Assembly (NCBI GenBank): GCA_950295325.1
Contig: OX485805.1
Coordinates: 57,622,758-57,686,757 of the forward strand
DNA: 64,000 nt
From: Polytrichum commune
Lineage: Eukaryota > Streptophyta > Polytrichopsida > Polytrichales > Polytrichaceae
Reading direction: 5' to 3'
The notes beneath the pieces were generated by a model. That model worked only from the letters and a program-made list of their open reading frames with translations. It had not been told where the DNA came from and made no database searches. Below, in pieces: positions 19,691 through 48,086 of this stretch (position 1 is its first letter; every line of letters starts with the position of its first letter). The translations under genes were made by a program, and so were the position numbers.

Positions 19691-20149
19691 TGAAATCAAC
19701 ACCAAACTAATTTCAACTCTAGTGCTTAATCAATTGCTCATCTAAGCCTCTTAACTAATGAATGCACACCTCCCACTAAATTAATCCAATCTAACCACTA
19801 CTCATGAGCTTAGTCCAATGACTCTAAGCTTCCCCTACTCATAAGAGGGATTAACTTCCTAACTTCACTATAACTAACTAATCCACACATAAGCCTCAAA
19901 CTCTAAGAGCTCGCTCCCCTTGAGAGGATTTGAGAGGGAGAGCTTAACTACTTAACTTCACTAAAACTAATGACCCACACACATGGCTCAAGCTCTTAAG
20001 AACTTGCTCCCTTGAAAGCGCTTGATGGAGAGAGTTGTAAATGAGAGAGAAAACACCTTAAGTAGCAAAGAGGGAGAGAGGGAGAGAGGGAGAGAGAGGT
20101 GAGGATAGGGTGAGAGGATTAGCACCTCCAATCACAATCCCTTAACCTT

Positions 20150-20215
20150 GGGCGTTGCTAGGGCATGAGCGTAGAGCGTAGAGCGTAGAGCGTAGATTTT
20201 CTGAGTTTCGAGCGG
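20150..20215. repeat. Left terminal inverted repeat of the MULE
   Basis: It starts GGGCGTTGCTAGGGCATGAG and continues as four tandem GAGCGTA heptads. The repeated heptads are candidate transposase-binding sites (inference). Confidence 0.8.
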
Positions 20216-20590
20216 AGAGATTTTATTTTTAGTAATAAAATTTCCAAAAATAAAATATTATTATTTTAAATGGTATATTCCTTAAAATATTCGAATTTTT
20301 TATCCTTATGGCCGTGGAATTTAGTACCCATAACCGTGCAAAATGGGTTTGACATATGGAAAAAATTTATATGTGACCGAGTTTTGGAGGAAATAGATGA
20401 CTTCATTGAAGAGAACTACAAGGACACATGTTCACGGAAGAGCACAAGTGAAGGACAAGTACAAGTTAATGATGAAAACATAAAATTTAAAAGCTAAAGA
20501 TTTGATATTGTTTAGATACTACATTAGACGCAGAGATAAGAGTGCAAACTTAAAGAATTAAAAAATTTGAATGAAAAAGTGCATACTTAC

Positions 20591-22702
20591 CAGTTCCATG
20601 AATCCACCCCACTGCCTATATCGGAAATGCCAAAACGCTAGCCAGTGGTTCAAATGGTGGAGGCCAGCGTCAGAGGTCGCACCCGAAGATGTCCACCAAG
20701 CTTTGATTGCCAAGTAACGTGTTTCAGCCTCTGCCACAGACCGTGCATCTTTGTATTGCATACATAATTTCTTGTGTTGATCTTGCAATTCGTGCACGAT
20801 GTATTGTTTGGTGTGTTTTTCTAGGGATTGCGCCCAATGGAAATAACACGTTCGCTCGCAGCCTTCCATGGGTATCTTTGGGTCTCCGGATCCGTAGATG
20901 ATGCGCACAGCGTTCCAATTGGCTTGCGCACTATCAGCCATGAAACCTTTGAACTGGGGCTTGTGTATTCCATGCCTACCCATGACATGGTTAAGGTTCT
21001 TCCAGAAAACGAGTTGAGCATCTTTGTCCTCAGACTGGAAATCACAGCAAGCAATGGTGAGTACACGTTGGTAAGAGGAGTCGTACACGTGGCAGGCCAT
21101 GGTGGTCCAGTTGGCAACTCGTTTGACGTGGTCAAACATCATCCAGGAGTGCTCTAAATCGCCACTAGGTTGCATTCGGCGGACAAGGTCAACACCGCTG
21201 CCAGGTCCCACCTCGGACATCTTGAATATGAAGACCTTGTCGGAGTCGTCACCTTGGCCTGGAAACATGTTTCGTTGCACGTAGGCCCAGTTGCTCAACC
21301 CTCTGAGCTTAGTGATGCCATCAAGAACGCCATATCTGCGCAAATACTTAAAACTGTAGACACGGTTTTTTAAGTTAGGGGAATTGAGCTCCTTGTAGCA
21401 TTGGAAGATAGGCTCTAGCTGTTCTAGAGAAAATAAGGTGGGAGGGTCGTCTTCTTCGCGGAGCAAGACGTTACCTAAAACATCCTTGCTAGTTTCCAAG
21501 ACTATTTTGGAAATGGTAGCCTGCGGGTTGCGCTCAACATGTTGTTCGATAAAATCGTCGATTATCTTCCGCGTGCCCCTATAGTCTCCTACCTTGACAG
21601 GATGCTTATGGTTGCCTACATGGACGCAAGCACGCTCTTGCGTATCATCTCCAAAAACGTAAAAGATTTTTGCATCACAAGAGGCTACACAAACAGGAGG
21701 TTCTTTACAGATCTTACAGACTAATGTTGAAGTTGGAGGTGGAGCGTCTGCAACAGGGAAGGCATCTTTGGAAGAACCTTCGAACTCGACCTCGTTCACT
21801 CCATATGCGCGTTCAGGCCGTTGCAGAAACCCACATTTGGGATTGTGGCATTGAAGATGACCTACACAGTTAGACGACCGGAATGACAACCCCAGCGTGT
21901 TACTGATGTTAGTAGTCATAGTCTTTGTCCATATATGGCCATCGTAACGTTTGTCCATACCTTCCATAGATTTAGCATTCTTATGGACTGCAGATGGAAG
22001 GGTGGGAGGAAGAATGAAGATTACATCCCCATTGAACGACGGTGGCAGGAAATCTACGTTCTCAGTATAGATGGAATCATAATTCATTTTCTTAAGAACT
22101 GACTTGCTTCCAGGCATACTACCTAGGGAACGAAGGGAGGGAAGAATGTTTATCAGTTTTGTAGTTTGCGAAGGTATAAGGAAAGGAGTAGTCCTACGTG
22201 AATCTTGAGAAGAGGAGGGAGATGGACGCTTAGCACTAGACCGGATTGATGGATGGGAAGGCCTCCCCTCATCATCAGAAGAATCAGACAAATCAATGCT
22301 AACGCGGAGACCTGGCTCGATCTTGACACGAGATAGTAAGGGGGCTTCAGTGCACAGTGTAGAGGAACTGCAAGGAGTGAGGAGGACTGTAGTAGCGTTC
22401 ATGGACTCTGACAAGCCAAAGACGCGATACTTTCCGGGCTTGAGTTTCCAAACGCGAGCATTATTGTCTAACGTTACGGCCTGGACGTATAAGGAATAAA
22501 TGACATTTTGAGTTTCCGGATTGACAACATCTGTTTCTAACCACAAGCTATCAGCATCGAAACCAAAACGAATGGATAGCCACTGGGGAGTGAGATCAGC
22601 GGTTCCATCAGGGCCAGGAGGTATGCATGTAGGGATAAGAGATCCAAGAGAAACAAGTTCGATGACATCGACGAGTGGAGGTTGGACAGCAGCGGAAGAC
22701 AT
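20591..22702 (-). CDS. MULE transposase (5' exon or exons)
   Basis: The frame opens at 22810, but a TATA box at 22771-22780 favours the second Met at 22702 (MSSAAVQP). Residue numbers count from 22810. A beta-rich N-terminal part is followed by an acidic patch, IDLSDSSDDE, that looks like a SUMO-interacting motif. A Cys/His region (about 315-400: QCHNPKC, CKIC, HVGNHKH) resembles WRKY-GCM1 fingers of MULE transposases. The DDE core shows candidate Asp560 (FDHVKR), Asp626 (MADSAQAN), a Cys-x2-His (CYFHW) and Glu694 or 696 (VAEAETRY). Coding ends at a strong donor, GAACTG/GTAAGT (20591). Further exons before the left terminus were not recognised, so the 3' end may be truncated. Confidence 0.75.
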
Positions 22703-22770
22703 TGAGAAACAATTTGACAATGCTATGTGAGAAGGAATTTGCAAAAGGGGGATCGAAAAGAAACAATGGG

Positions 22771-22780
22771 ATATATACAT
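22771..22780 (-). promoter_or_regulatory. TATA box of the transposase gene
   Basis: The minus strand reads ATGTATATATCCC about 70 bp upstream of the ATG at 22702 and downstream of the alternative ATG at 22810. This argues for the shorter protein. Confidence 0.5.
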
Positions 22781-22895
22781 GAGAGGTTGATGAAGACGTT
22801 GGACATCCAAGACATGTACAGAATGTAGTCAGAAAATGTTTGGTTAATCATGAGAAATATTAATAATCTGTATAAACAGTAGTGTGAACAATACA

Positions 22896-23333
22896 TCATG
22901 GAGTGGGAGACGAAAATGGGGCCTTTGCCATATGGGGCCCTTTGCCATATTTATCATTGTCATGTTTATGACAATGATCAATTCCTAAACTACGAACTGC
23001 AGTGCATCCTGCGCAATCGAGTTTCTGACCTTTGGCACTCCTCAATATGGATCTAGAGTAAGTGCCAGGTTTAATAACCCCTGCTCTAGAATAGGGATGA
23101 ATCTTGAAAGTAGACTTGTTCTGTATCAGTAATGCATCAACTGCCTGCAAAGATGGAGTCTGTGGTTGAGGAGTGGGAACCACGACCGCAGGAGTAACTG
23201 AGCAGTCAGGTGGGTTGGCATTCTTCATGTTCTTGACGTCTGCAGAACCATCGATGGACAACGTTGTGTGAATTTGAGATGAACTAGAAGCACCTAATGG
23301 AGCAAGGCTTGGGAGACGTGAGTTAGTACCCAT
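22896..23333 (-). CDS. Small MULE gene 2, Cys/His motif protein
   Basis: This 145-codon frame lies upstream of and parallel to the transposase gene, with its own TATA box (23387-23396). The N-terminal half is Ser/Pro/Thr-rich and probably disordered. The C-terminal half has LDCAGC followed by LGIDHCHKHD. That C-x2-C plus DHCH spacing recalls the zinc site of endonuclease VII/HNH proteins, but the second Cys pair of that fold is not visible. I therefore do not claim nuclease function. Its position beside the transposase recalls two-gene Mutator elements, as a structural parallel only. Confidence 0.5.
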   Translation of the reverse strand: MGTNSRLPSLAPLGASSSSQIHTTLSIDGSADVKNMKNANPPDCSVTPAVVVPTPQPQTPSLQAVDALLIQNKSTFKIHPYSRAGVIKPGTYSRSILRSAKGQKLDCAGCTAVRSLGIDHCHKHDNDKYGKGPHMAKAPFSSPTP

Positions 23334-23386
23334 TGGAGAAGATATTGATGAGATGACATGAAGGAAAAGGGTAGCAATAATCGGGT

Positions 23387-23396
23387 ATTATATACA
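23387..23396 (-). promoter_or_regulatory. TATA box of small MULE gene 2
   Basis: The minus strand reads TGTATATAATACCC about 55-60 bp before the ATG at 23333. This is a normal distance for a plant core promoter plus short leader. Confidence 0.5.
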
Positions 23397-23829
23397 ATTT
23401 GGGTTGACAACAATACCCGAATAATTGACAACTTATTAGATCAATTAATAGTCAATATTTATTCATGTAAATTCTGGACAACATGTTTCATGTAGGATTA
23501 GAATGTACTCCAGTAATAGTCATTACTTCCTGACCACCAAATATGATACATGTCAGTATAGACTAATTTTTATACGCACCCAAAAATAACCCAATATATG
23601 CTATGCCGAAATGCTGAAGTTAAACCCTAAAGGTGTCTGTACCTTAAATGGAAAAACATGACAATTCAAAAATTTCTGGAGGCCGACATTGTCAGGGGAG
23701 ATGCGTAAATATATAGACAAATTCGAAATAGATTAGTAATTGATGTCAGTGTTGTAAGATATCTAATCTCGGATTCCGCGTTTTTATTAAACGCGGGATT
23801 ATAACTCGATGACATAGCTTGCTAGAAAT

Positions 23830-23842
23830 TAAATATAAAGGA
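23830..23842 (+). promoter_or_regulatory. Candidate TATA box of the divergent cargo gene
   Basis: The plus strand reads AAATATAAAGG about 110 bp before the ATG at 23949. Together with the minus-strand TATA at 23387, it makes 23400-23830 a candidate divergent promoter. Confidence 0.35.
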
Positions 23843-23948
23843 AAGGGATTCGGAGGACTAGGTCATTCAAATACAAGTTGTGTTGTAGTTGGGTTAGGGT
23901 GTTATTGTTGTTTTACAAATTTGTGTTCATTGATCGAAGTATCCAACC

Positions 23949-24336
23949 ATGGAGGCTACGAGTAGTAAAACAAACAAAGTGAATGAGGTAGGGCGGGGGA
24001 GGAAGAAGAAGAGAGGTGGTATAAAATTTAGTGGGGCCAAGGCTTTGCGACGGAACGCGTTGCGGAAGAGGGATGCCCCGGGTTCTTGCGAAGACGATCG
24101 AATAGTAGATGAAGAAGATAAGAACGATGAGGACGAGCCAGGAATGTTCAGAAAGACTATCACGATGCAGCCGTTGAACTTGGATGCAGTTGTAGAAAAT
24201 GTTGATGGTGAAGAAGAAGACGATGGAGGGGAAAAGGACAATGCAATCGAAGAGCAAGAATGTAGAAGGCCCTCATCATCGAGGAGTGATTATGGGATTC
24301 GAAAACGACAGTGACGAAGAAGGGATCGATAAAGTT
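23949..24336 (+). CDS. Basic/acidic N-terminal exon, possibly of the ParB/methyltransferase-like gene
   Basis: The product begins MEATSSKTNK and has a nuclear-localisation-like GRGRKKKRGG stretch near residues 15-25, followed by a long acidic part. In its own frame it stops at 24314. A frame one base off continues as MGFENDSDEEGIDKV to a donor, GTAAGT, at 24337. That end is phase-compatible with a 78-nt exon at 24931-25008 (CTAG acceptor, GTAAGT donor), which is in turn phase-compatible with 26152. It could be the true 5' part of the downstream gene with one frameshift, or a separate small gene. Confidence 0.4.
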
Positions 24337-24930
24337 GTAAGTTCCAAGACCCTAAAACCTTGAAAATGAGTAGTAAACTTCAGTCATAGTCTTACTTGCT
24401 TATCGTGCGATCCCGTGGGGTGAACCTAACAGAGGCAAAGGGTAGATGTTACAAAGATAAATTATGGCTTATGATGCCTATAATATCATACAAACTTATG
24501 TCATAGACGTTTGTTCTAGGAATTTGTTCTAGGAACTTAATATCTAGGAATTAGTTTCTAAAGTTTGTTTGTCACATGATTGTTGCCTGTTGTATGTACG
24601 TGTTGATAACGTCTTAGTATAAGTAAGTGGCACTTGACGATGAAACGACACATTAATAAAAAAATCAATCTACATGACCCTCAATATTGGCAGTCAGATA
24701 TTCAATTATAAGCGAAAAAATTAATGAACGTGGGAGTCAAAGTGGCTGGATAACTGGGAACACTCGGCAGTTCGGGCAGACACCTCCAACCCACCTGGTA
24801 GACTGATCCGACAGAGCGGGACCCTCCGAGCAGGTCGGGTAGCGATGGATTGTTTGGGAAGGTCTCCATAACAGATCTTATTGCAAATGACCGCCTTTGA
24901 TTGAATCGAATTTGCAATATATGTTACTAG

Positions 24931-25008
24931 GAAATGGCAGCTGAAGGAGGATGTGCAGTTACAAGGTTGGAGGGCACCCCCGAAAACGTCGACGAAGATT
25001 TGGAGAAC
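24931..25008 (+). CDS. Possible 78-nt exon linking to the cargo gene
   Basis: Preceded by TTACTAG and followed by GTAAGT. It encodes EMAAEGGCAVTRL and then an acidic tail, is exactly 26 codons and joins in frame to the exon starting at 26152. The intron between would be 1143 nt and contains the 127-bp array. Support is splice signals and phase only. Confidence 0.4.
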
Positions 25009-25270
25009 GTAAGTCCTTCATCTTCATCGAGTTATTTCAATGGGTCCATTGTGAAGGGAGCATTGTGAGGTAAGTGTGATTTTAAAACCCTAAAATATTA
25101 TCTGTTGATAGTTGCAATGAGATGGCGGATTGTCACGATGCTTCTGAACGAAGTTGTGATTGAATTTGTGAGACCCATCTGCCTGGTGGTTGTCAAGTGC
25201 CGATGAAGACCATTCGCGGCTCAAAGGCTAGTAGGGTTTGTTTTTGCGGTACATTTTTCTGCTATACCCT

Positions 25271-25885
25271 CTGCCTTGATGAATTTGTGCGCCGATGATG
25301 AGCTTCTGGCTCTGAGGCAGGATAGGGTATATAGTTTGATTTTTGGCAGTTTGCTTTAGGAAAATGGGTGACCCCTGCGTTGGCGCAGGGGTCCTTTCTG
25401 CCTTGATGAATTTGTGCGCCGATAATGAGCTTCTGAATCAGAGGCAGGTTAGGGTATATAGTTTGATTTTTGCAGTTTGCTTTAGGAAATTGGGTGACCC
25501 AAGGGGTCCTTTCTGCCTTGATGAATTTGTGCGCCGATGATGAGCTTCGGGCTCTGAGGCAGGATAGGGTATATAGTTTGATTTCCTGCAGTTTGCTTTA
25601 GGAAATTGGGTGACCCCTGCGTTGGCGCAGGGGTTCTTTCTGCCTTGATGAATTTGTGCGCCGATGATGAGCTTCTGGCTCTGAGGCAGGATAGGGTATA
25701 TAGTTTGATTTTCGGCAGCTTGCTTTAGGAAAATGGGTGACCCCTGCGTTGGCGCAGGGGTCCTTTCTGCCTTGATGAATTTGTGCGCCGATGATAAGCT
25801 TGTGGTTCAAAGGCAGGTTAGGGTATATAGTTTGATTTTTTGCAGTTTGCTTTAGGAAATTGGGTGACCCCAGGGGTCCTTTCTG
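25271..25885 (+). repeat. 127-bp tandem repeat with an internal hairpin
   Basis: Five units start CTGCCTTGATGAATTTG at 25271, 25398, 25513, 25640 and 25768. Units 1, 3 and 4 contain the hairpin CCCCTGCG-TTGG-CGCAGGGG (25372-25391, 25614-25633, 25741-25760). Units 2 and 5 have lost it, leaving CCCAAGGGG or CCCCAGGGG. Probably intronic in the cargo gene. Confidence 0.9.
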
Positions 25886-27566
25886 CTATAGGTTATATGA
25901 GTATTTTTTTGTCATGTGATAATGGCCTATTTATTCTAATCCATATTCTTTTTTTTTTGTAGGTTTCTTCACAGAGAGTACATGGAGCCGAGTACAACAG
26001 TTACTTGTCCGAGATGCTTAGTGGTTTCAACATTGTCTTAGCTAGTCGTCATTTAGTCATAGGTTTACTTGCTATAACTTAGCTAGTCATCGTTTATAGT
26101 ACTTCATATTTTTTTCCTAAGTGTATTGTGTTTCATTTACCTACCTTCCAGATGACATTATCCGATGTTCCCGTACCCGAGCAAGTCCCACCTCCCTCGA
26201 TAGATTCCTTGGAGGAGGATTGTGGCATTCCCCCTCAACATTCTTCAATCCTAAATGTTGCCGACTTGGAGGAGGATGTCCCATCCTCCGATCAACATGC
26301 TGCTGATACCACTCAAGAGGCCACCCAAGAAGCCGATACCATACAAGAGGCCACCCAAGAAGCGCCCGATTCAAGCGACAAACGCTCGTCAAATCCCTTA
26401 CGTCCTCCTGGTGGTGTTGAACTTGGCATTGTTCACATGCCTCCTCATTTGCAGGACAAGGACCCCATGTGGAGCGCAAATGAGATGAGATTGCTGCAGA
26501 AGAGTGACTACAATACTGTCATCTCCAATCTTCGCACCAAACCCATTAAGAAGTCTCGATTCCTTATTCCTCTTTGCCGTCTCAAGACCTACCCGAAGGT
26601 GCGTCCAATTGTCGATTCCTACGTCGAGATGTTGGCGAACGAGTTCGTCAAAGGGTATCGAGAAGGAGATCGAGTTTTGTATGTGTTTCCTTTCGACATC
26701 ACGGACAAGGATCTAACGGTTCGAGAGGATGACGCCATCTGGTCTAACCCACTATGGAAATCTATTAATAATGAGTTCGAAGAGTACTTGTCGTCTGATC
26801 CTGATCTCCATCAGTTTCGGAACAAATACTTTTATGTCTACGAAGGTAATCACCGCGTGACGGCTTGGATGGGTTACATCCACAAGTACCATTCCAATAA
26901 TCCTGACTGGTACATTTCGGTTGACTGTATTGTTCTCGACGCACGTGGGCAATGCTCAATGTTTCTCAACGCCATGAACGACATAAACTGGTAAGTATAC
27001 TTGCAAATCCATTTCCATTAATTTCATATTCCATTTACCCATGGAAGCCTTGTTTTAATACTCATATCTTCATTCACAGGTCGACGGAACATGATCATGT
27101 TCAAGACAGTACTATTGCCAAGTTGCAAAGAATTCGAACCTTCAGCTCCTTCAAACTTTCTGATTTCAAAGGTCTTATTAGCAAAGAGGACATGGCTATT
27201 TGCGAGGCTTATAAACCCCGTCTACCGTCATGGTATTTATTCACAATGGACATTTTTGTTAAATTCCTCCACGCGGTAAGTTTTCTAAAGTTATGTGCTT
27301 ATTGTTTTCATATTATGAAGTGCATCATGCGTTTCTTGCATCTTAATTATTGTCATACAGAGACAATGCGCTGCTGTATCCGACGTTGCTTGCTCGAACT
27401 ATTACGAGACTGTGCCCGAGAATGAGAGGATTGGGCCTGGAGTCTGGAGTGCGATGGACAAGGCCATCACGAAATGTATCAAGCACTGGCGCAGCCAAAG
27501 GTTTGACAAGATGGTTGCAATCGCCAACCAGCCAATGGAGAGTTATTTGAACAAGAGGTATTCTCA

Positions 27567-27835
27567 ACTCAACTCTCAACTCTCAATTCAACTGTCAACT
27601 CTCAATTCAACTCTCACCTCTCAACTCTCAACTCAATTCTCAGTTCTCAACTCTCAATTCTGAACTCTGAACTCTGAACTCTCAATTCTCAACTCTGAAC
27701 TGTGAATTGTGAACTGTGAACTCTCAATTCAATTCTCAATTCTCAACTCTCAACTCTCAACTCTCAATTCAATTCTCAATTCTCAATTCTCAACTCAACT
27801 CTCAACTCAACTCTCAACCCTCAACTCTCCATTTT
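27567..27835. repeat. CTCAACT/CTCAATT minisatellite in intron 3
   Basis: Irregular tandem CTCAACT and CTCAATT words fill most of a 306-nt intron. Array-free introns of this gene are only 78-93 nt. Confidence 0.9.
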
Positions 27836-29157
27836 CCACGCAGCTCAATAAACATTATACTAGCGGGAAATCATTGGACTTGACCGTTGAGCGACTTCAT
27901 AAAATTGCAACCACCAAGGTCCATCCTGACTTCAAAGGGAAATGGTTGCAATTGTGGAACGGAACGGACGAGGAACGGGCAGCCTACCGATTTCCACTAG
28001 ATCGTCCAATGAAGGACAAATTCCTCGACGTCTGGTTGCCAAGGGCTTCTCTCTGGGCTCAGGTATGACGATACTTACTTCCTCTAGGCTCTTCATTTTT
28101 AATCCGTTGAAATTGTCGTTACTTCTAACACCCATCGTTTCATAATGTATGTCAGTTGTCTACTTTCCTTAAAGACCACATGGACAACTATGTCGCTAAA
28201 CTTAAGATCAACATTGAGTGGAGCTCCGTTGTTCTCAAGCCGGCGGAATACGTGGAGAAATGGAGATCGCTATTGTGGAAGAAGGCTTTCCCCTTCTACC
28301 TCTCGGAAAATGCAAGCCCAAGGTTTCTCAAAGGTTCAGGGCTCCTTAAGATTGAAGGTGGAATTTTGGCGGGCCGCTTGTTTTACAGGTTTGTATGATT
28401 TGGCTTCTTGTTTGATTCAGTGTTCTCTTTGTCTCTATCACCCTTCCTAAATGTAACGCATATATGCAGGTACATGAAGCAAGAGCTCATCGCCAAACGT
28501 GCTCTTGCGGCTTGGGAAGTTCCGGCTCATGTTGAGCTCAAACCGTCTACCCAAACGCCTATTGATGGACTTTGGACCGAAGACCAACGCAATCGATTTC
28601 CCTATGAGGTATTGCTCACAGGTGGTTGGTTCCTCGAGTGCCCACAGAACTTCGTTCCTGAGGAGGAGAAACATCTCGTCCCTGTCCCGGAACCATCTAC
28701 AGGAGGAGCGGCTCCTATGGTCACTGACTTGAACGACGACGACGAGGAGGCAACTCAGCCTGAACCTGCTCCGAAGCCAAAAGTTCAACGTCGAGGGAAG
28801 GTTCGTTCTCACGACGGTTCCGTTGTGGCAGCCTCACCTGCATGTGTTCAAATTCCTGCAGGAGCTCCTTTGGCTTCGACTCAGACTTCGCAACGCACGG
28901 TTTCTAATCCGCCATCACCCCCACGTTCCAACTTGGATGTTCAATCTAGCCAAAATCTTCGTGTCACACTCTTTTGCCGTGGTGTACCACCCCCGAAAGG
29001 TGTAGGTGTCATTTCGTCTTCGCCGTTTAAGACGACCCTGCCGATGTTTCTTGAGCATGGAAACTTCTGTGCCTTGCTTAACCAGTCTGAACACCAAAAA
29101 TTCATGGATCGGCAACTTGTCCGTATCGTAGACCACATTATCAAGGTCACACAATCC

Positions 29158-29325
29158 CAACTCAACTCTCAACTCTCACCTCTCAACTCTCAATTCAACT
29201 CTCAACTCTCAACTCTCACCTCTCAACTTTCAACTCAACTCTCAACTCTCAACTCTCAATTCAACGCTCAACTCTCAACTCTCAACTCTCAATTCAACTC
29301 TCAATTCTCAACTCTCACCTCTCAA

Positions 29326-29361
<36 letters not shown>

Positions 29362-29377
29362 AACTCTCAACTCTCAA

Positions 29378-29427
<50 letters not shown>

Positions 29428-29464
29428 AATTCTCAACTCTAAACTCTAAACTCTCAACTCTCAA

Positions 29465-29510
<46 letters not shown>

Positions 29511-29515
29511 CTAAC
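29158..29515. repeat. CTCAACT minisatellite in intron 6
   Basis: The same word family as intron 3 expands intron 6 to 454 nt. The reading frame running through it is an artefact; the upstream exon has a donor at 29146. Confidence 0.9.
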
Positions 29516-30883
29516 TCTATCAATTTCAAAATTGTCTTGGACTAGTGAGGTTTTTTTTTATCGGTAACTCATGCTTTCCATTTTTTCTTATTCATACAGA
29601 TCGGGGTCGGCCGTACTTATCCTTGTGAATCGATGCAAATGCGGCCTAGGCATCCTGGAATTGATCTCGTGATTGTTGACGCTCCAGAATACTTGGTCGT
29701 GCCTGTCATCTCTCCCATGTCCGTACCGTCGTGGAACAAGCGAGAGACAGACTACTTTGACCAACTCTTCGCCTTTGCAGATTGTCACTTGACCGATGAC
29801 GGAGTTGTTCTCCTCTTCCATCCCAAGGACCGTTGAATCGAGAAGAAGTTAGATAGTAAAATCAAAATGTATGATTTTACGATTGTCCGGGATTGGTGGG
29901 GCTATAATCCCATTCCCATGGCCTCCTCCCTTCCACACCAGAAAGAGGTATTATCTTTTATGTTCATAATTTGAATTTCTCAATCCGACAATCAGTTTCA
30001 ATATATTCTAATCCTTGAGGTTTTCTTACAGACCCATAACTTCAACATTAAGGTCTTTGCACGCCTTAGTTCCAAGTTCCGTACTCGCCGATTGCGACCG
30101 TAGTTCGTACAAATGGAGATCCTTCCCGAAGAGCGCGACGACTTGACGAACTTCACGACAACCGAGTCCCAGCTTCTACGCCCTACTGGACTTCCTTGGC
30201 GTGGCTCGCGTGAGAAGGACCCATCATTTGTTCAGTGCTTCATCGAGTGTCTTACAGACGAGCATGATATCGTCTGCGATTGGAGCCCTAGTACAGGTTT
30301 TCAATATCTCCCTTCATTGTTTACAACAACTGAAACTGAATTCCACTTTCTAAATTCCGTTTTCCAAACTGCAGGTGCTTCTGTCATTGCTTGCCAACGT
30401 TCGAACCGACACCTCATCGCATTGGAGCCGGATTCAGAAATCTTTGAGGCGCTTCTCAAGCCTTACGTGGATGCGATCCCGCAACCAGAAGAGCGCGCGG
30501 ATTCAACCACAGACTCTGATTCCGACGAAGACTTTGCTCCAAAGAAGAAGAAGGGTCGCAAATATTGCGGTGCGTCTTAACTGCATGTCTTAAGTCTCTC
30601 AAATATTTAATGTATTCATATAATTTGTCATGTTGACTTTGTTTTATTATTTAGTGACGCAGGTCTCGCAAGACGTTTGATCCGCCACGGTGATGTCTAC
30701 ATGAGTCCTCCTACTTCGTTCGCCTTACCTTCATATGCCGAACGTATAGCACAAGAATTCATACGCGCCCCATCTCCAATCCTTTCAGATTTTCCACGTC
30801 AACTTTTCAACCCTATAGTGCTTAGATTCATGGATGTCGAGGCTGATCAATGTGACGAGAGTTTCGATGTTGGTTCACCTTGA

Positions 30884-32854
30884 TCAAGACTATCCATATG
30901 TTTGTTTCTGGTTTGTTACGTGCATAATGTAGCCATTTCAAATGGCCATTTCTTTTTAAAATAAAACATCTACAAGTTTCTTTGTGTCATAGCTATTGTA
31001 GACTTGTCAAAGAAGTTCAAAGAAGTTGAAGTTTGAAAGTTTGAGTTATGCCATTTGCACTGAAATGCATGTGCACGCTTCTAACTTGAACACTGAATTG
31101 ACTCTATCTAACAAAACTTTGTCATATCTAGTGACATTTGGGAGATGTCACTAGATGGAACTCCCAATTTTTAATACATACATGAATTTTTCTCGCCATC
31201 ATATTTGTTGCTTCACAATTGCTCCTTTGTTTGTTTTGAATAAGTCTATGGCTTAGAATAGGTGTCTACAACACCCTTGCTTCAAATATTTATGTTAAAT
31301 TGCTCAAGCCTCCAATAATTTATATTCCAACGCCCAATCCTTCCTTTCGGATTTGCTAACACATTGATATTTTCACTCCATGCTCTTTGCACTCCTAGGT
31401 TACCAATTCCCTTGAATTGTCATGAATAGGTGTCTCTACCTTAGAGGGTGTATAAACCAACACTCGAGAGGGCTTAGCCGATTTAGATCAACGGTATAAA
31501 TGATTGGCTTAGCAAATTGACCTAGATTTATGGGTTGCTCGACCCAACTCTCGACGCAACCTCCAAACCTAACCTCCAATAACATGTAGTGATGTAAGCA
31601 TCCACATCAAAGTTGGGACATAGGACTTAGGACCCCACGTGAAGTAATAAGTCCCAATTTTTATCCTTTCAACAACTAAGTTTGCACATATTGACCTTAA
31701 GTGAACTAAGACTTGGGACCCCTTTTGAACCAACCCTTAGTGAACCGCCCTCGTTCACATCGACTTAAAGTGCCGAATTTATTTTTCTTTTCTTTCTTTA
31801 TTCCCCGGCCCAAGGAAGATGGTGGTCCACCAAATTGTCCTATTAGTGTGGGTTACCATTTGGGGTTACGTATTGCTAGAACTTTTTACCGACATTATTA
31901 TATTTTAACTAACTAGATTACATCATATTCTTCAATGTGCGTACTAAATACTTGTGTCATTTGGGTAAAAAATTATACTCTCTGTAAAATATCATAGCAA
32001 TGCGTAACTGCAAACAATAACCCCCACTAATTAGGCAAAATAGCGTAGTAAATACCATAAGCCTTGTAGTTGAATTTTAACATTGGCTAGGCATTTTTAA
32101 AATTTAAGATCATGACTGGTCATCTCTAGATTCCACCTATAAGAAGATAGAGCAATATTACTTTATAAGTTATCCATAAATCAGAATAAGGAAAACTTAT
32201 TTGGAAATCAACGTCTAGAATTTGACAATGACTTAGTTGAAGAATGAGGTAAGTAAACCTAATTTGGTTACTTATCTTGATTGAAAATAATTATGTTTAA
32301 ATGGTCTTTGGTTAAGTGTGTATCCAAGAATGGACACCAAGAAGACACGTGTTTGATAGATTTGGAAGAAAGGCATAATGTTCCTCAATAAACCACACAA
32401 TGTTTAATACTCTCAAACAATATTCTTTACTAAAATTGTCGGCACTACCCTCTCCACTGAGATTCTAGATTGAGGGGACCTACCTACATGACCGATTAAC
32501 AAGCACAAGAATATTCACTTGTTGGATTGTATAAACTTTGCCATTTAAATTATTGTTTCGAGGATGCCAGCCCTAATTACGCCCTTAGCCTTAAACACTG
32601 AAATAAATTTGTTAATTAATTAAAACACAATTTCATTTCAACCTTGAACGGTCCTCATTTAAATCACCCTTTCATATAAATGATGACGTCAGCCCTAATT
32701 TCAGTATATATATAATAACAAAAATTTGCAGTAGGACCCCCTTCCACGGATTTGGGGTACTCTTTTCCCTAAAAATATACATTTATAGTTTTCTCTAGAC
32801 CAAATTCAGTGGTAATAGGATCCTTATGTTTCAATAAAATTTTGAAAAGCGAGC
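30884..32854. other. Non-coding right arm of the MULE
   Basis: About 2 kb between the end of the cargo gene and the right terminus. It is AT-rich and no gene was recognised. It may hold the 3' UTR and subterminal sequence. Confidence 0.5.
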
Positions 32855-32920
32855 GGAGAAATTCACGAAAACATGACGCTCACCGCTCTACGCTCTACGC
32901 TCATGCTGTAACTTTCCCCC
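32855..32920. repeat. Right terminal inverted repeat of the MULE
   Basis: Read inward from 32920 it starts GGGGGAAAGTTACAGCATGA and shares the 23-bp GAGCGTA block with the left end. It is followed directly by the TSD copy CTTAACCTT. Confidence 0.8.
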
Positions 32921-33243
32921 CTTAACCTTCACCTTCAAAGTAGGGACTAATCCCCTTCCACCAAGCTTCCTTCTTCCTAAACTACCAAGGTGGATCCAAA
33001 AGTGGGCATTTAACCCGCGGAGCTCACCTTGCCTCACCTTACCCCCTACTCACATAATCAAGGCATCCTCTTATTGAAATCAAACCTTGAAATAACTACA
33101 CCACACATTTTAATGCCTAAACTTAAATCCACACCACACTTCACTCTTTTTATGTTTTGTGAATAATCATAACACCTCAAAGTCAAACTAAAATTGGGTT
33201 CGAAGACTTAATCACCACATGTGGGCACCATTTTGGGCTCACA

Positions 33244-34192
33244 CCTTGTGATTTATGGCCGGTCATTGCGTATGCTAGAACAATTGAGAATGATGCTTTG
33301 TAATAATATTGTTCATATGTGTACTTGTGTTGGAAATTATGTCGTTTTAAGGAGATTTGCGTCAAGGTCCCGATGATTTGAACACCAATGGTTGTGACCA
33401 CACCTTGGTTGTCTGTATGGATTGATGTTACCGTTGTGGGTGCACCATTGACAGCTCCTTTTGCAATATTGACATTCGATGTGAACATAACGAGCGCACC
33501 TCCAGCCACATGATGAAGTTGGTCAAATTTGGTGTCATTCAACCATGTCGATACGTTGTGAGCTTCGGTTGCATTTGTATCAAGTGTCACAGGAATTCTA
33601 TATGCCGGGGCAAAAATGGCTTTGAATATGATGTCGTTGTACGTGGTAACATCTTCGCGGTGTGAACACAAGATCGTCGTAGTTGCATCTAGATAGTGTG
33701 ATAGCATGTCGTTGTCAATGAAGCACGCACTGAGTGTGTCTTCGATCTCTGCTTATGTAGGTGGCCGATGTCGTATTATATTTAGGAAATTGAGATACGA
33801 TGGATCGGATGAATGTCTAACAGATGTGTGAAGAGTGTGTTGTTTTGCAGCTGCCCAACATGGAGCGGAGGTAATATGACATGCTCTACAAATGAGGTCT
33901 GGTGGTTTGGGTTTGTGTATACATATCGCAGGCAGTTGAGCAAGGTCTCCAACTAATATCAAAAGTTTATTTTGGAATGAAAATGTGTCCGTGATAAGGG
34001 TGCTTTGTTTATGCGTTGTTCTACTACACACAACATATTGCTAGTCATCATCGACATTTCGTCAATGATTATGACGTCTGCGTTGTTTAATTTGGTCAAA
34101 ACGGGGCTTGATTCAGGTAACACAGATAAATAGCTATGTGTAGGTATACGAAATACATTATGGACTGTAGATGCGAATTTGGAAAGCCTAAG
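33244..34192 (-). pseudogene. Helitron Rep/helicase, central segment
   Basis: Read on the minus strand it begins LRLSKFASTVHNVFRIPT. It carries Walker B VIIIDEMSM, motif III LVGDLAQLP and the start of motif V, YAMTGHKSQG. There is a frameshift around 33960-34030 and an in-frame TAA at 33753. It joins 50835 upstream across LTR A2 (TSD CTAAG) and 17695 downstream across LTR A1. Confidence 0.85.
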
Positions 34193-36726: not shown

Positions 36727-38598
36727 GTTTAGTCGGCCGACACTAGTAAGGGGACTTAGTGAGGCAGATTCAAGGCTTAATGCTAGGCCTTTAGTGACTT
36801 GGGTAGATAATTAAGGGGGGAAGCCGTAGTGCTATATCGGACTAAATGATAGTTAGTTGATTGGGTTGTTACTTAATGTTACTTTAGATAATTTGTCATT
36901 AGCAAGATAATATAACACGAAGTGAGGATTGTGAAAATAGAGAATAGCGTTTTTTTAACGCTTGTACCCACACTAGGAAATAAACTGAGTGCACGAGTTG
37001 ATGGAAAGTGTGAAGGATTCCCGCAATGTTGAGACAAGGAAAATCACAACTAAAAGGCCAAGGGGAATGTCCTTAAGGGCATGTGTAGCTATGGCCGCGG
37101 GTTGGACTCTTGAGAAGACCCGCGCTACATCTATTCACGAGGCTAGCATTAACAAAGCATCATGACTTTAAACAATGTGGGTATCCCCGGATACGGAAGT
37201 TACATTTCATGCTACTACTGTGGGAGTCCAAATTCGACGGAAATACGGAAATACTGATCCATTTTCCGTATTTTATCCTTCTTGTATGAGGATAATGGGG
37301 TCTCTTAGGATAAATTAATTGTACTAGGAAATAGGGCATTCTAAATCCGCCTCGCGCGATAAAAAAGATAAAAAAGAATATTATTACCGGTCCGGCAAAT
37401 TGGATTAGGGGGACCGTTTGATCATGGTCCGAACCACTGGTCCGGACCAAGTAACGGTTGCGCCAAGATTAACCAACGGTCCGGAAGTGGCGGTTACAAC
37501 GGATTTATGACGGTTGGGGGAAAACCGTCGGAAAACGGTTGGCAACCGTTTTTCGTTAAACCCTAACGGTAACAGGGGAAGGAAGAGGGGGGAAGGATAT
37601 TTAAAGGTCCCTTCCTTCTCCTCCCCACTTTTTGCAAGGAGAAAAATTATTGAGGGAACGAGTGGTGAGGCTGTGTTTTTTTTTTCGAGCCTCCAGCAGT
37701 TGGATTGCTGGGACTCCGTAATTTCCAGTCACCGGCAGTTGGCTTGCGGGACTCCGTAGCAGTTGAACGGAAGAGAGGGTACCCGGAGGGGAGAAAGTTT
37801 CCGTAATTGAGACGGAAGTTGAGAGAAGAGAGGAAGATGTTGGAAGCACAGGAAGAGGATCAGAGGGAACCCATCCCGGTTCCACTCAAAGCCCTCATCC
37901 CTGCAATTCCGAGGGAGGACAGGGAGTTGCAGGAGCTAGCGGAGGATCTCCGGGTTATGGGCTGCGCAGGGTTGCTCGCCAAACCCTGGAACCTCCGAGC
38001 AGAAGATACCCTCCGAGAGTTCAAGTTCGAGAGAGGGAACAGTGGCTAGGAACAAAGAGGAGGGATCCGGATAATTGGACTCCGGATATTTGGAATAGGG
38101 TCTACGGGTTTCCGAGGGGGATTGCAGAGGGATGGGCCGGCCGCCGCGATGGCCTGTTCGCCGGAAAATTTACAGGGGACGCGGATCCGAAGGACGGCTT
38201 CCACCCCGGGAACTGCCGGAACCTTAGAGAGCGGAGGGTGTTAGAGTTCCTCCTGCCCATCCTTAACCCGGACAAGCCGAAGCGGATTAGCCTTACCATG
38301 GCTAACACCCTGTTCGGTGCTATGTCCGGAGTCCGGCCCGTGAATTGGGGGCTGATCATTCAAGAAATAGTAGGGCGAGCCCTCCCCCATATAGGCCGGA
38401 AACCCTCCTTCCTCTCCCCCTTCATTCTGCACCTCTATCAGCACTTCGATTGCACCACGGCCGAGGAGGAGGACCTGCTGACGATAGCGGCGGACGAGGT
38501 CACCTACAAGCTCCATTCGGAAGCCGGAGACCTGGAGACAGAGACTTCCAGCGACCCCATCATTCCGGAAGCACCTCCCTCTTCACCCGGAAGCCCGC

Positions 38599-40574
38599 TG
38601 TGAGCCCAAAAGGGTGCCCACATTTAGTCTTAGACCCTTGAAACGTTAGTTGATGCACTTTGAAGTAGCATGTTACTTCACAAAAATATAAAAAGAGTGA
38701 AATGTTAGTCTTAGAAGTACCATGTTGTAAGAGGCTAGGATGTGAGTTGTTATTGTGTTTTTACCTTCGGAAGGATTTAAGTGAATGAGGATAGGTAAGG
38801 AGAACTTGGATTGAGTAGTTAGTGAGTAGGCTAGTACAAATGGATGGAGACAACCAAAGTGACTCAAGAGGCAAGTGCATTCGAATTGGGATGAATGGAG
38901 GATCACATGGAGCGCACAAGTGGACCACCTCATCATGGCCACTTAATGGGAAAGGCCCAAGGAAGAATGCAAGGTGGAGGATAAGCAAATTCTCAAAGCA
39001 CCAATCAAATCACGAGTTAAGCATCGTGGTTTGAATTAAGTGGTGAGCGACGATTTGGAAAAGTAAGGGGAGAAAGTTATGGCGGCGGAAAGCGAAGGAG
39101 GCTAAGTTTGGGTTGAAGCATCCCAAGTTTGGTAAAGTGTGGTAAGTAGAAAGCCAAGGCTAGTTAAATGTTCGAATTAGGATCCTTGTTGATCATTTGA
39201 GGGAGGAAGGCTTAGAAGATAGGATTGGCACCTACTAAGTAGGAGGAAATCTCAAGGGCTTATCGTGAGTTAGAAGGAGAACTTGGATTGAGTAGTTAGT
39301 GAGTAGGCTAGTACAAATGGATGGAGACAACCAAAGTGACTCAAGAGGCAAGTGCATTCGAATTGGGATGAATGGAGGATCACATGGAGCGCACAAGTGG
39401 ACCACCTCATCATGGCCACTTAATGGGGAAGGCCCAAGGAAGAATGCAAGGTGGAGGATAAGCAAATTCTCAAAGCACCAATCAAATCACGAGTTAAGCA
39501 TCGTGGTTTGAATTAAGTGGTGAGCGACGATTTGGAAAAGTAAGGGGAGAAAGTTATGGCGGCGGAAAGCGAAGGAGGCTAAGTTTGGGTTGAAGCATCC
39601 CAAGTTTGGTAAAGTGTGGTAAGTAGAAAGCCAAGGCTAGTTAAATGTTCGAATTAGGATCCTTGTTGATCATTTGAGGGAGGAAGGCTTAGAAGATAGG
39701 ATTGGCGCCTACTAAGTAGGAGGAAATCTCAAGGGCTTATCGTGAGCCTTGAGGGTGCTCACCCCCTCAAGCTTACTATATAATCCCTCATTCTTCCCTC
39801 ACTCATCCTCTCTTTCCTTTGTGCTCCAAGGCACCCCACGAGTTATAAGTGTGGGTGTAGGAAGCCATATTGGAGCACATGTGTGTGCTTAGTTTTTAGT
39901 TTGAGAGCCAAGGCTTGTTAGCCTTGAAGAGGGCTTGACCTCTTGGTAGAATTAGTGTTGACGTGAAGGATTTTAAAGTTAATTCATGATTCCAATTTGT
40001 GGTACTTTAAGTTCATGTTTTGAATACACGTGGTTGCAAGTTCCATGTTTAAGAGTTGAGCACTTGATGTTGTGATGAGTGCAAAAATATACTTGTGTGG
40101 ATTAGTTAGTCTTAGTGAAGTTAGGAAATTCTCTCTCCCCCTCTCCTCTCTAGGATTTTAGGATTTTAGGATTAGAGAAGAATTGTGTGATTAGAAAGGA
40201 ATTGTTAGTAGAATTAGGGAAATTAGGTAGGAAGATTAGTTAAGGGCTTGAATAATTAGTGAGGTAGTTGGGAATTACAACTACAAAGTTGTGGGTTCAT
40301 GAAGGAGCTGGGTTTATGAAGGAACTGGGTTTGTTTAGTTAGAAAGTAAAGAGCTGGGTTTATGAAGGAGCTGGGTTTATGAAGGAGCTGGGTTTGTTTA
40401 GTTAGAAGCTAAGAAGCTGGGTTTATGAAGGAGCTAGTTAAATCCAAGACCACTTGAAGGGTGAACCTTGCACTATGGACTCATCCAAGTCCAAATCCAA
40501 TACCGCGGAGGAATGTGAGCCCAAACCCACTACTCGGACTACGGACGCTTAAGGGTGGGGGGTTTGGCCTCACA
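38599..40574 (+). repeat. 5' LTR with a 477-bp tandem duplication
   Basis: 1976 bp against 1499 bp for the 3' LTR. The difference is exactly one extra 477-bp copy (segments around 38797-39273 and 39274-39750), which begins AGAACTTGGATTGAGTAG. Outside this the two LTRs differ at very few positions. A TATATAATCC promoter element lies near 39778. Confidence 0.95.
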
Positions 40575-41483
40575 TAATTGGTGCGTCCGCCGGGAGCGAA
40601 GCGGAAGGTAGTTACAAGACTTGGAGGCGACTAGGAGACTTGGAGGCAACTAGGAAAAATTGGAGACACAAACTTGAGAGAAGGGAAGGAGCACCCGAAA
40701 TTCGGTAAGTATTCTCTCTTTGGGTTACATTTGAATTCATTGTATTTCAACTATTCCTTGGAATGAATTGCATTGTCAATTACGCAAATTCATTTTTGAG
40801 GAAGGAGCGCGGCGAAGGTACGTCCTCAACCTTTTTGGGGATTTGCTAAGAACTTAAAAGGAACCTATAACCGAGTAGCTCATTAAAACATTAGAGGGTA
40901 AATTCACCTTAGGACATTGAACTTTGACAGTCACCTCGGGGTGAGTCTCAAAGTTTTGGGAGTTGTCATTTCATGCTCTAGATTAAATTAATATTTCACA
41001 AAGTTTATGGTGTTGTTACATTGAGTCACGATTGAGGGGAGTGCTAACTCACAGGGGGATGCGATTGCTCAAGGTATGTTTATTTCTTCAAAGTGAACTC
41101 ATTAACTAATTAAGGAATGCCTTTTGTACTCGTGATTGTTGTTATCCGTTGTAGAGGGTAATTCCCGAATTGTGGATGGTGTGAGAAGTTGAAGGGTGAA
41201 GCCTCGACTTTTAACATAATCTACTCGGAAGGTCACCCCCTCACAATCGGTATTGTGGTGAGTGTTAATTTGCGGGAAGGTGCGGAGGTGATGCTCCGAC
41301 TTAACCAAAAAATTAACATGAACATGCCTATCCCCTATTGGGATTCTTTCACCTAAGTGGGCTTGCAGGTTCTTTTCCTCACCTCCTAAAAAAATTATAA
41401 CCACACCAAGACAAGTGAAAATATTAAGAGGGGAATTGCTAGGATTATGTGTGGTCAAGTGAGGGTCGATCGATTCTTATGGA
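40575..41483 (+). other. gypsy leader with candidate primer-binding site
   Basis: Directly after the LTR comes TAATTGGTGCGTCCGCCGGG, at the position of the primer-binding site. The matching tRNA was not determined. The rest of the 0.9-kb leader has no supported gene. Confidence 0.55.
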
Positions 41484-44400
41484 ATGCAAGGTAGGACTCG
41501 CTCACAAAAACCAAGTTTGATAGTAGGACTAGAGAAATCTACTCGAAAGAGGCGGTCCTCTAAAATCAGTGATAGATTAGAACAAGATAATGTTAGAATA
41601 GAGAGTTGTTTGAACGTCGAACCTAGGACTAGGTCAATTCTAGACACCTTAGAACTTGGAGCTCAACTTGAAGAGGAGATCACTCCCTCCAAATTGAGTG
41701 GTGAAACTTCTTCGGAAAATTACACACTTAGAGAAGAATTCCCGGTAGAAGTTGATAGGGGATTGTTGAATAGTTCACCGGTCACCATGGCCGAGGAACG
41801 GGGGATGGATCCACCACCCATACCCCCAATTCCGCCCATACCTCCTATACCTCCAATAGACCCATTGGTTAGGCCAAGAGGCCTACCAATTGTGGTTCCA
41901 CAAAATTTAGCGGCGATGGATATGCCATCTCATCTCCCTAAATTTTATGGGACCAAGGATGAGGACCCCTCTCGGCACATGGAACGGTATATCGAACGGT
42001 TGGCTAGCTTCCTCATAACCGACCCGGGTTATTGGTTAGTGTGGTTTCCTACCACTCTAGAGGGGGAAGCCTATGAATGGTATCGGGATCATGCCGAGGG
42101 ACATTTTAGGGGATGGGAACAATTACAAAGGGAGTTTCTTAACGAATTTAGGCCGGAAGTGGGTCAAAGTACCGCATTAAGGGCATTGTCGTCATTGAAG
42201 CAAGGAAGGGAGGAAGAAATTTCGGCTTACATTAGGAGGTTTGATTTAGTGTGCACTAGATTTGTGGGTACCATGCTCAACGACGACACGCTAAAGCAAT
42301 TTTTCATTCAAGGGTTTTTTAAGTCCGGAACTATTAGGGGTGTTCTAGAAAGGAATCCCTTGACCTTGGCGGATGCCAAGCGTGCGGCTAGAGATATTGA
42401 AAACTTGGATAAAGATCACGAAAGGCTATGGAGAAGGGAGGATGAATTGATCCCACAATTCATCCCCATACGCCCTAGGGTGGTAGCGGTAGAACCCGCT
42501 AAGTATGAGAACCAAATTCCATATGCCATTGTGGACACCGGTCCCCGACCTTTAGCGGTTAGGGAACCGGCACCTCTTTTGGCACTACCGGCCCCTAGAA
42601 CGGATCCACACTTGGAGGAGGTTGAGAGAAGACTAGGTGCTAGCCAACTAGGATTCCAAGAGGCTATGATAAAACAAATGCAAAGCCTCACGGATCAAAT
42701 GTCATTAATGATCCGGAGTCAACAACCGGGGCCTCCACCCCCGGTTGAGTCGGGTAGGCATTCTTCCGGATTATGGTGTGTCCAATGTGGCCAACCGGGC
42801 CACACGCGTCAATTTTGTAGAAGTGGACAAAACCGTGACCAAAGAGGAAACGGTAACCCACCTCAACAAAATCAACGAGGTCAAGCGCCACCTCACTATG
42901 GAAATGGAAGCAATAGAGGACCACAACCTAGAGGGCAAGGTGGCCAAAATTTAGAGAAGAAGGAATTTCATCCCTTTTGTGGAAGGTGGCACGCTCAAGG
43001 ACAATGTTGGTCCGAAGGTCAAGAGTTTAATTGTAGCAATTGTGGAGGAAGTCATCCCTCGGATACGTGTCGCCAACCGGACAAAATAATTAATGTCCCT
43101 TACCCGGTGGCTAATCCACAACAACAAGCAAGGGATAATATGCGAGGTGCTAGGCCACAAGGAGTACCGGCCAATGAACTTAGGCCACCTAACTTATACT
43201 ATGACCATAGTAATGCTAGGCAAACTTTTCATCCACCGGCGGGCTTGCAAACTACAACCGGTTACATTCCAATACAAAATAGACAAGGAGTTCCACCTAA
43301 TGGTAGTAACGGGAGACAAGCGCCTCCAACGGATCCGGGACCATCTAACTCCCAAGATGTTAGGTTCATGGATGGAGTGTTGGAGGCCACATGTGATGAC
43401 ATGCTTCCTCTCCCAACGAGAATTGGAGAGGAGCAAAGTCAATGGCCTCCTCACACCAATGCTATTACATATGAGTTAGTGAAGGGTAAGGGTGTGGTTG
43501 AAGAAGCACCCGCACTAGCGGTAACTACTAGGGCTAGGAGAGGGGATGCCCCGTTGGAGGTAGGAATAGGAGAGCAAGGAAATTACTCTTCGGATGAAGA
43601 GATTAATCTCTCCGAGTTGGATAGGGTAGCTAGAAGAGCTACTAAGGATGTGGAGAGGGAAAATATAATTTTACAAGATAGGGAGAGGACTAATGCGGTA
43701 CATGACTTGGATAATAGCGATGTGGGTGAATGGGAAGGACCGGGGGTTCCCGTAGACGAATTCGACGTAGTGGGTAATTCTAAGGTGGAAAGATCTACCG
43801 GGTACGACTTGTGGGCGGACCTTAGTACACTCAAGGCGGATATTACTTTCGGCCAACTATTGGAAATTTCACCCACGGCAAGGAAAACATTAAAGGAGGG
43901 AATGCCGGTACACAAGAGGATGAGGAAGGTGAAAGCTAAAATAGCCGCTAGGATCCAATCACAAGGTGGAAGAGACGTGAAAGCTATAGAAATAGAAGTT
44001 GTTATAGTAGATAAGGTGGTTCCTAATGTGCTAGTCGACGGAGGGAGTAGTCTAAATATACTACCGGAGGATACTATGAAAAAATTGGGACTTGGACTCA
44101 CGGGGCCTTCACCTTTGGTCATAAATATGGCAAATCAAAGTTCGACTACGCCTTTGGGGATGATCAAGGATTGTAGAATGACTACGGGAGGTGAGGAGTA
44201 CTTGGTCACCTTCCATGTCATTAAAATGCACTCCAACAAGGACACCTTCCCCATTTTGCTAGGTAGGCCTTGGTTGCGGATGGCGAATGCTATGGTCAAT
44301 TGGGGTGGACCTAAACCATCCATCACTTATGGTCCGGAGGGTAATAGGGTCATAGTGTCCATTGGTTCATTAGAAGGATGGATGAAGAAGGAGATGTATT

Positions 44401-46526: not shown

Positions 46527-46587
46527 CTAGGCAACTTACCCTTGGAGCAAGAGATGTTTGGATTCATCCCCCGATGGTCGCCAATTA

Positions 46588-48086
46588 TGTGAGCCCAAAA
46601 GGGTGCCCACATTTAGTCTTAGACCCTTGAAACGTTAGTTGATGCACTTTGAAGTAGCATGTTACTTCACAAAAATATAAAAAGAGTGAAATGTTAGTCT
46701 TAGAAGTACCATGTTGTAAGAGGCTAGGATGTGAGTTGTTATTGTGTTTTTACCTTCGGAAGGATTTGAGTGAATGAGGATAGGTAAGGAGAACTTGGAT
46801 TGAGTAGTTAGTGAGTAGGCTAGTACAAATGGATGGAGACAACCAAAGTGACTCAAGAGGCAAGTGCATTCGAATTGGGATGAATGGAGGATCACATGGA
46901 GCGCACAAGTGGACCACCTCATCATGGCCACTTAATGGGGAAGGCCCAAGGAAGAATGCAAGGTGGAGGATAAGCAAATTCTCAAAGCACCAATCAAATC
47001 ACGAGTTAAGCATCGTGGTTTGAATTAAGTGGTGAGCGACGATTTGGAAAAGTAAGGGGAGAAAGTTATGGCGGCGGAAAGCGAAGGAGGCTAAGTTTGG
47101 GTTGAAGCATCCCAAGTTTGGTAAAGTGTGGTAAGTAGAAAGCCAAGGCTAGTTAAATGTTCGAATTAGGATCCTTGTTGATCATTTGAGGGAGGAAGGC
47201 TTAGAAGATAGGATTGGCGCCTACTAAGTAGGAGGAAATCTCAAGGGCTTATCGTGAGCCTTGAGGGTGCTCACCCCCTCAAGCTTACTATATAATCCCT
47301 CATTCTTCCCTCACTCATCCTCTCTTTCCTTTGTGCTCCAAGGCACCCCACGAGTTATAAGTGTGGGTGTAGGAAGCCATATTGGAGCACATGTGTGTGC
47401 TTAGTTTTTAGTTTGAGAGCCAAGGCTTGTTAGCCTTGAAGAGGGCTTGACCTCTTGGTAGAATTAGTGTTGACGTGAAGGATTTTAAAGTTAATTCATG
47501 ATTCCAATTTGTGGTACTTTAAGTTCATGTTTTGAATACACGTGGTTGCAAGTTCCATGTTTAAGAGTTGAGCACTTGATGTTGTGATGAGTGCAAAAAT
47601 ATACTTGTGTGGATTAGTTAGTCTTAGTGAAGTTAGGAAATTCTCTCTCCCCCTCTCCTCTCTAGGATTTTAGGATTTTAGGATTAGAGAAGAATTGTGT
47701 GATTAGAAAGGAATTGTTAGTAGAATTAGGGAAATTAGGTAGGAAGATTAGTTAAGGGCTTGAATAATTAGTGAGGTAGTTGGGAATTACAACTACAAAG
47801 TTGTGGGTTCATGAAGGAGCTGGGTTTATGAAGGAACTGGGTTTGTTTAGTTAGAAAGTAAAGAGCTGGGTTTATGAAGGAGCTGGGTTTATGAAGGAGC
47901 TGGGTTTGTTTAGTTAGAAGCTAAGAAGCTGGGTTTATGAAGGAGCTAGTTAAATCCAAGACCACTTGAAGGGTGAACCTTGCACTATGGACTCATCCAA
48001 GTCCAAATCCAATACCGCGGAGGAATGTGAGCCCAAACCCACTACTCGGACTACGGACGCTTAAGGGTGGGGGGTTTGGCCTCACA
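46588..48086 (+). repeat. 3' LTR of the gypsy element
   Basis: 1499 bp, from TGTGAGCCCAAAAGG to GGTTTGGCCTCACA. Near-identity with the 5' LTR apart from its duplication indicates recent insertion. No obvious polypurine tract precedes it. Confidence 0.95.

Follow-up and report, generated by a model that had tools for sequence, protein, structure and literature searches.

A broken 12.8-kb Mutator-like element with a divergent ParB-methyltransferase gene, a probable accessory gene of its family

The segment at positions 20150-32920 of the window (the whole 64-kb stretch of DNA analysed here) is a 12.8-kb transposon of the Mutator kind (MULE), which contains a transposase gene and, divergent from it, a gene for a two-domain protein that joins a ParB-like domain to a methyltransferase-like half. 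The ends of the element are sharply defined, and both genes are broken in this copy. The interpretation that we favour, with modest confidence, is that of a dead copy of a large DNA transposon of the MULE superfamily, whose family normally encodes a transposase together with a divergent ParB-methyltransferase accessory protein. The presence of introns, a Helitron, an LTR element and C/D snoRNAs in the window marks the window as eukaryotic.

Boundaries, transposase and surroundings of the element

The 9-mer CTTAACCTT lies directly outside the left end (20141-20149) and directly outside the right end (32921-32929), as expected of the 9-bp target-site duplication proposed in the first-pass annotation. 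Its weight derives from its position at both ends and not from rarity, since this 9-mer alone is expected in 0.83 copies per 64-kb window by chance, while the chance of identical 9-mers abutting both fixed ends is about 5e-6. Both ends start with GGG, and the terminal inverted repeats (GCATGAGCGTAGAGCGTAGAGCG-type) occupy 20150-20196 on the plus strand and 32875-32920 on the minus strand, with arms that reach 31 bp at 94% complementarity. The perfect 23-bp block noted earlier is found at 20163-20185 and, inverted, at 32884-32906; these are its only two sites in the window at up to 3 mismatches, with none expected. Most of the block is a GAGCGTA heptamer repeat, present as 4.3 tandem units at 20167-20196 on the left (four exact copies) and as two exact copies on the right, and no exact GAGCGTA occurs outside the two terminal repeats within the 64-kb window. 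MULEs produce target-site duplications of 8-11 bp, usually 9 bp, and the present element combines a 9-bp duplication with terminal inverted repeats.

The transposase is encoded on the minus strand, where exon 1 (20591-22702) comprises 704 codons without a stop, residue 705 of the model being translated from the first bases of the intron. From its N-terminus, this exon encodes a ubiquitin-like fold, a zinc DNA-binding domain of the WRKY-GCM1 type and the first part of an RNase H-type catalytic domain of the IS256/Mutator kind, with conserved D524, D541 and D590 (protein numbering). Among the families listed by VIA-align, the best structural match of the catalytic part is ISCth4 (6xgx), in agreement with the earlier assignment to a MULE-type transposase. 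ISCth4 is a bacterial transposase of the IS256 family and is not known to have ubiquitin-like or GCM-type domains. Judging from the model, the fold is likely of the MULE/IS256 RNase H kind; when the whole 705-residue protein was searched with Foldseek alone, the rows below the first were mixed and mostly unrelated, some being RNase H-like at low probability. The window transposase matched no Pfam family at all, curated MULE/Mutator profiles included. A Transposase_mut match was seen in one row out of 61 (E 0.034) and in contig CADCWO010000080.1 (L001; E 0.043), in both cases below cut-off and no stronger than unrelated weak matches in those same sequences, and the 60 relatives scanned, from a family of 151, gave scattered weak Pfam matches only.

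The exon end RYRQWGG, or a variant of it, was found by pattern in 58 among 120 listed of the 151 relatives. Past this point the relatives' frames continue into varied, intron-like tails, and 2 of the 58 read on across the intron to MPSCNLAETVH. Both transposase exons (695 + 455 residues) are preserved in the 4101-bp contig L001, the second of them with the NLAE glutamate (CNLAETVH) and with a CxC..CxH pattern resembling a SWIM zinc finger, which gave no Pfam match. The first exon of L001 matches the window copy at E 1.4e-172, its second exon has no counterpart in the whole 64 kb (best E 5.7), and 441 bp are left between the end of the transposase exon and the end of the element; the transposase of the window copy is therefore incomplete, consisting of exon 1 only, and its DDE triad is incomplete, the exon that in L001 carries CNLAETVH and the SWIM-like pattern being absent. 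Contig L001 is filed under a Synechococcales cyanobacterium MAG and is probably eukaryotic contamination, since its transposase gene has an intron. No transposase relatives were found in IMG/VR, which holds few eukaryotes and says little about other genomes.

Two further features lie within the element. A small open frame on the minus strand (22896-23387) contains a weak Endonuclease VII-like stretch (E 0.064, below cut-off) and is possibly a third element gene, and tandem repeats of about 127 bp occupy 25270-25886, between the divergent genes.

Other mobile DNA surrounds the element. A Ty3/gypsy-type LTR element at 38599-48086 is flanked by the 5-bp duplication CCCGC (38594-38598 and 48087-48091); its LTRs agree at 100% over 1301 bp and at 99.6% over 671 bp, and a 477-bp tandem duplication (99%) lies inside the 5' LTR at 38797-39746. 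Its 1687-codon frame encodes gag, protease and integrase, and a search of this frame for reverse transcriptase/RNase H gave no match at E up to 0.01; the element is a recent insertion, seemingly without a reverse transcriptase of its own. Helitron pieces occur on the minus strand at 50883-53052 (Helitron_like_N, E 1.3e-25, with a weak AAA helicase part) and at 33183-33752, adjoining the right flank of the MULE (very weak Pif1-like match, E 0.1). The MULE and the LTR element may lie in or beside a split Helitron.

The ParB-methyltransferase gene

The second gene, a ten-exon model predicted from sequence alone, runs on the plus strand from 26152 to 30883, inside the element ends and divergent from the minus-strand transposase. 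Exon 1 (26152-26990) encodes an acidic leader and a ParB/sulfiredoxin-fold domain with a GNHRxxAW motif, and is followed in the model by exons 2 to 6 (27080-27275, 27361-27557, 27864-28062, 28156-28388 and 28470-29145). Exon 7 (29600-29947) encodes the N-terminal part of the methyltransferase, with the place of motif IV (DAPEYL), exon 8 (30032-30296) the C-terminal part up to motif I and exon 9 (30375-30569) the end of the domain; exon 10 (30663-30883) carries the terminal stop at 30881-30883. All nine introns are of the GT...AG type and seven measure 78-93 bp, the other two being intron 3 (27558-27863, 306 bp) and intron 6 (29146-29599, 454 bp), which contain 15 and 38 exact copies of CTCAACT, respectively, within arrays of this type of heptamer. 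These copies make up 53 of the 57 exact plus-strand occurrences in the window; outside the two introns there are 4 on the plus strand and 20 on the opposite strand, one of them, at 21012, inside the element. In the methyltransferase alignment there is no gap at the exon 8/9 join and a difference of a single residue from L002 at the 7/8 join, which supports both joins. Read through, the frame is 1122 codons long and is interrupted twice, by a TGA at 29834 in exon 7 and a TAG at 30101 in exon 8 (codons 859 and 920), compared with 24 and 66 stops in the remaining two frames. The divergent ten-exon gene described in the first-pass annotation thus stands, as a gene whose methyltransferase frame is interrupted. 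A search with the whole spliced product returned no matches, a probable consequence of the database proteins each covering a single exon, and relatives were obtained by searching exon by exon.

For the ParB exon, 70 relatives were recovered from 295 candidates, the best at 87%. GNHR is kept in 63 of these 70 and GNHRxxAW in 61; the last motif of the exon is likewise present in 63, and in 55 it lies no more than three residues from the end. The AlphaFold model of this exon, built from 69 aligned sequences, has a mean pLDDT of 76.4, rising above 90 over much of residues 120-270. Sulfiredoxin, ParB, Noc, KorB, PadC, SbnI and serine kinase account for 41 of the best 50 rows among 65 Foldseek matches, with a best E of 8.5e-3 and none at or below 0.001 among those 50. 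Sequence searches of the ParB half against solved structures and against NCBIfam gave no match, and the comparison with PHROG returned one unnamed family (E 0.32). DUF6551 was matched in 4 of 69 members and by the cut-out ParB domain at E 0.0014, below cut-off. No relatives of the exon appeared in IMG/VR, GTDB genomes, phages or plasmids, collections with few eukaryotes that say little about other genomes. When contig sizes were compared between 68 of the 70 ParB rows and 120 transposase rows (those listed, out of 151), none was shared, a weak comparison with one size per cluster. A 2025 survey describes ParB-fold proteins that are fused to DUF6551 and others, chiefly from phages, that are fused to N6_N4 methyltransferase domains (PMC12704722).

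The C-terminal stretch of the gene product matches two methyltransferase families in PHROG (E 4.9e-4 and 5.0e-4) as well as adenine methyltransferases of phages (E 4e-4), with weaker matches to Pfam N6_N4_Mtase and DpnA (both E 0.2); NCBIfam gave a single unrelated match to the methyltransferase half (E 0.17). End-to-end alignment with two phage enzymes, one of which matches DpnA at 1.8e-24, yielded 23% and 21% identity, and among the residues common to all three proteins are D and P in motif IV, a W followed by a T, D....LF and TxN. Beta-class methyltransferases carry motif IV as (D/N/S)PP(Y/F/W) and motif I as FxGxG. In the aligned places, the window copy has DAPE against DPPY and DLPY in its two phage relatives, and DWSPSTG against their D(F/N)TMGSG, and the H(P/S)TQKP stretch of these relatives is without a counterpart in the alignment. 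Because motifs IV and I are altered and two stops interrupt the frame, the methyltransferase of the window copy, as read from its sequence, should not methylate DNA. The joining of a ParB-like domain to a beta-class methyltransferase-like half, as first proposed, is upheld by several weak-to-moderate matches on each side.

Accessory gene, chance capture or nested element

For other transposons, the proposal that such genes are accessory cargo has already been published. Sola1-1_Ec32 of Ectocarpus, a 21.5-kb element, carries a protein of 1104 aa with ParB-like and N4C/N6A-type DNA methyltransferase domains, encoded on the strand opposite the transposase and predicted to make 4mC or 6mA (PMC12477816, Genome Biol 2025). 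As far as its description allows the two to be likened, the gene model presented here has the same arrangement, both domains being predicted in one gene inside the element ends and opposite the transposase, with a similar length (1122 codons read through); the carriers differ, a Sola-1 superfamily element there and a 12.8-kb MULE here. Proteins of this type, again likened by description, have been reported for transposons of green and red algae (Iyer 2011; Petroll 2025 on Bostrychia, cited in PMC12477816), and the same source cites giant EnSpm elements with accessory genes in red algae. Within the open-access literature, judged by title and abstract, no MULE with ParB-methyltransferase cargo was recognised.

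Epigenetic cargo of other kinds is described for MULEs and further transposons. The MULE-type VANDAL elements of Arabidopsis encode VANC, which causes loss of methylation (PMC5735166, PMC10398659) and acts sequence-specifically on short motifs of its own element, often tandem repeats and also located in introns (PMC5735166). The present element resembles VANDAL in being of MULE type, its cargo being a putative methyltransferase where VANC acts against methylation. Oomycete MuDR elements carry SET histone methyltransferases, and fungal TET/JBP genes represent a DNA-modification enzyme that numerous lineages of transposons carry and have handed on to one another, the carriers named in the abstract including no MuDR/MULE (PMC12730594). 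The latter are comparable as DNA-modification cargo, although they encode dioxygenases and belong to fungi.

Against this background, a single Pack-MULE-like capture, in which the ParB-methyltransferase was picked up once from another mobile element or from the host and has no role, appears rather unlikely, and random capture is less likely than an accessory gene. Capture would agree with the broken state of the gene and with the presence of ParB-methyltransferases on other superfamilies, from which it follows that transfer between elements happens (PMC12477816), but it fits poorly with the retention of ten exons with usable splice sites, the orientation divergent from the transposase and the origin of the ParB exon in a broad, conserved family. 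The earlier claim of an accessory rather than randomly captured gene receives only indirect support, through the 70 relatives among 295 candidates, the conservation of GNHR and of the exon's last motif near its end, and the Ectocarpus parallel (PMC12477816). Still less probable is a composite of two unrelated elements, with the ParB-methyltransferase part a separate transposon nested in the MULE: nested elements abound in the window, the Helitron pieces and the LTR element among them, yet the inverted pairs other than the terminal repeats that bracket the gene (I2, I3, I6 and I10, among the 25 of 42 pairs listed) reach no more than 70-73% complementarity over 25-37 nt, a chance-like level, and divergence from the transposase again speaks against it.

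A different question is whether the methyltransferase half is catalytic anywhere in the family. That it is non-catalytic throughout, serving as a DNA/SAM-binding specificity domain or as a silencing antagonist that does not methylate, is a serious possibility, although we consider it less probable than its opposite. The altered motifs IV and I and the missing H(P/S)TQKP stretch point this way, and with several residues different at each site the changes look older than the two stops; conversely, they could be private decay, as a single sequence of the methyltransferase half was compared, and the Ectocarpus relative is predicted to produce 4mC or 6mA (PMC12477816).

Possible role and wider meaning

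Under the favoured interpretation of a family accessory protein, the ParB half of intact relatives, perhaps a nucleotide-switched DNA clamp, would load onto the DNA of the element itself, with the heptamer arrays as possible loading sites, and N4C/N6A-type sites would be written, or now only read, by the methyltransferase half. The outcome might be an element that is marked or protected from host silencing, or one in which access of the transposase is tuned. For the window copy itself, the earlier suggestion of a cargo active in marking its own DNA or tuning silencing is not borne out, given the truncated transposase, the two stops and the altered catalytic motifs; probably, it was either mobilised by transposase acting in trans or damaged once it had inserted.

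It is tempting to speculate, although we regard it as unlikely, that a MULE lineage independently evolved VANC-like self-recognition from bacterial parts, in which a ParB-fold clamp and a methyltransferase domain, possibly a non-catalytic reader, load onto the GAGCGTA arrays of the terminal repeats and the CTCAACT arrays of two introns and thereby shield or mark their own element against host silencing. The parallel between the intron repeats and VANC targets is suggestive only, and the heptamer arrays may be ordinary minisatellites.

If ParB-methyltransferase cargo is indeed carried by a MULE, in addition to the Sola1 and algal cases, this protein would seem to move between unrelated transposon superfamilies in the manner of the fungal TET/JBP genes. 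It would then be likelier, and open to testing, that the protein acts directly in the survival or movement of transposons, and a MULE could have, alongside VANC, another possible way of recognising its own DNA.
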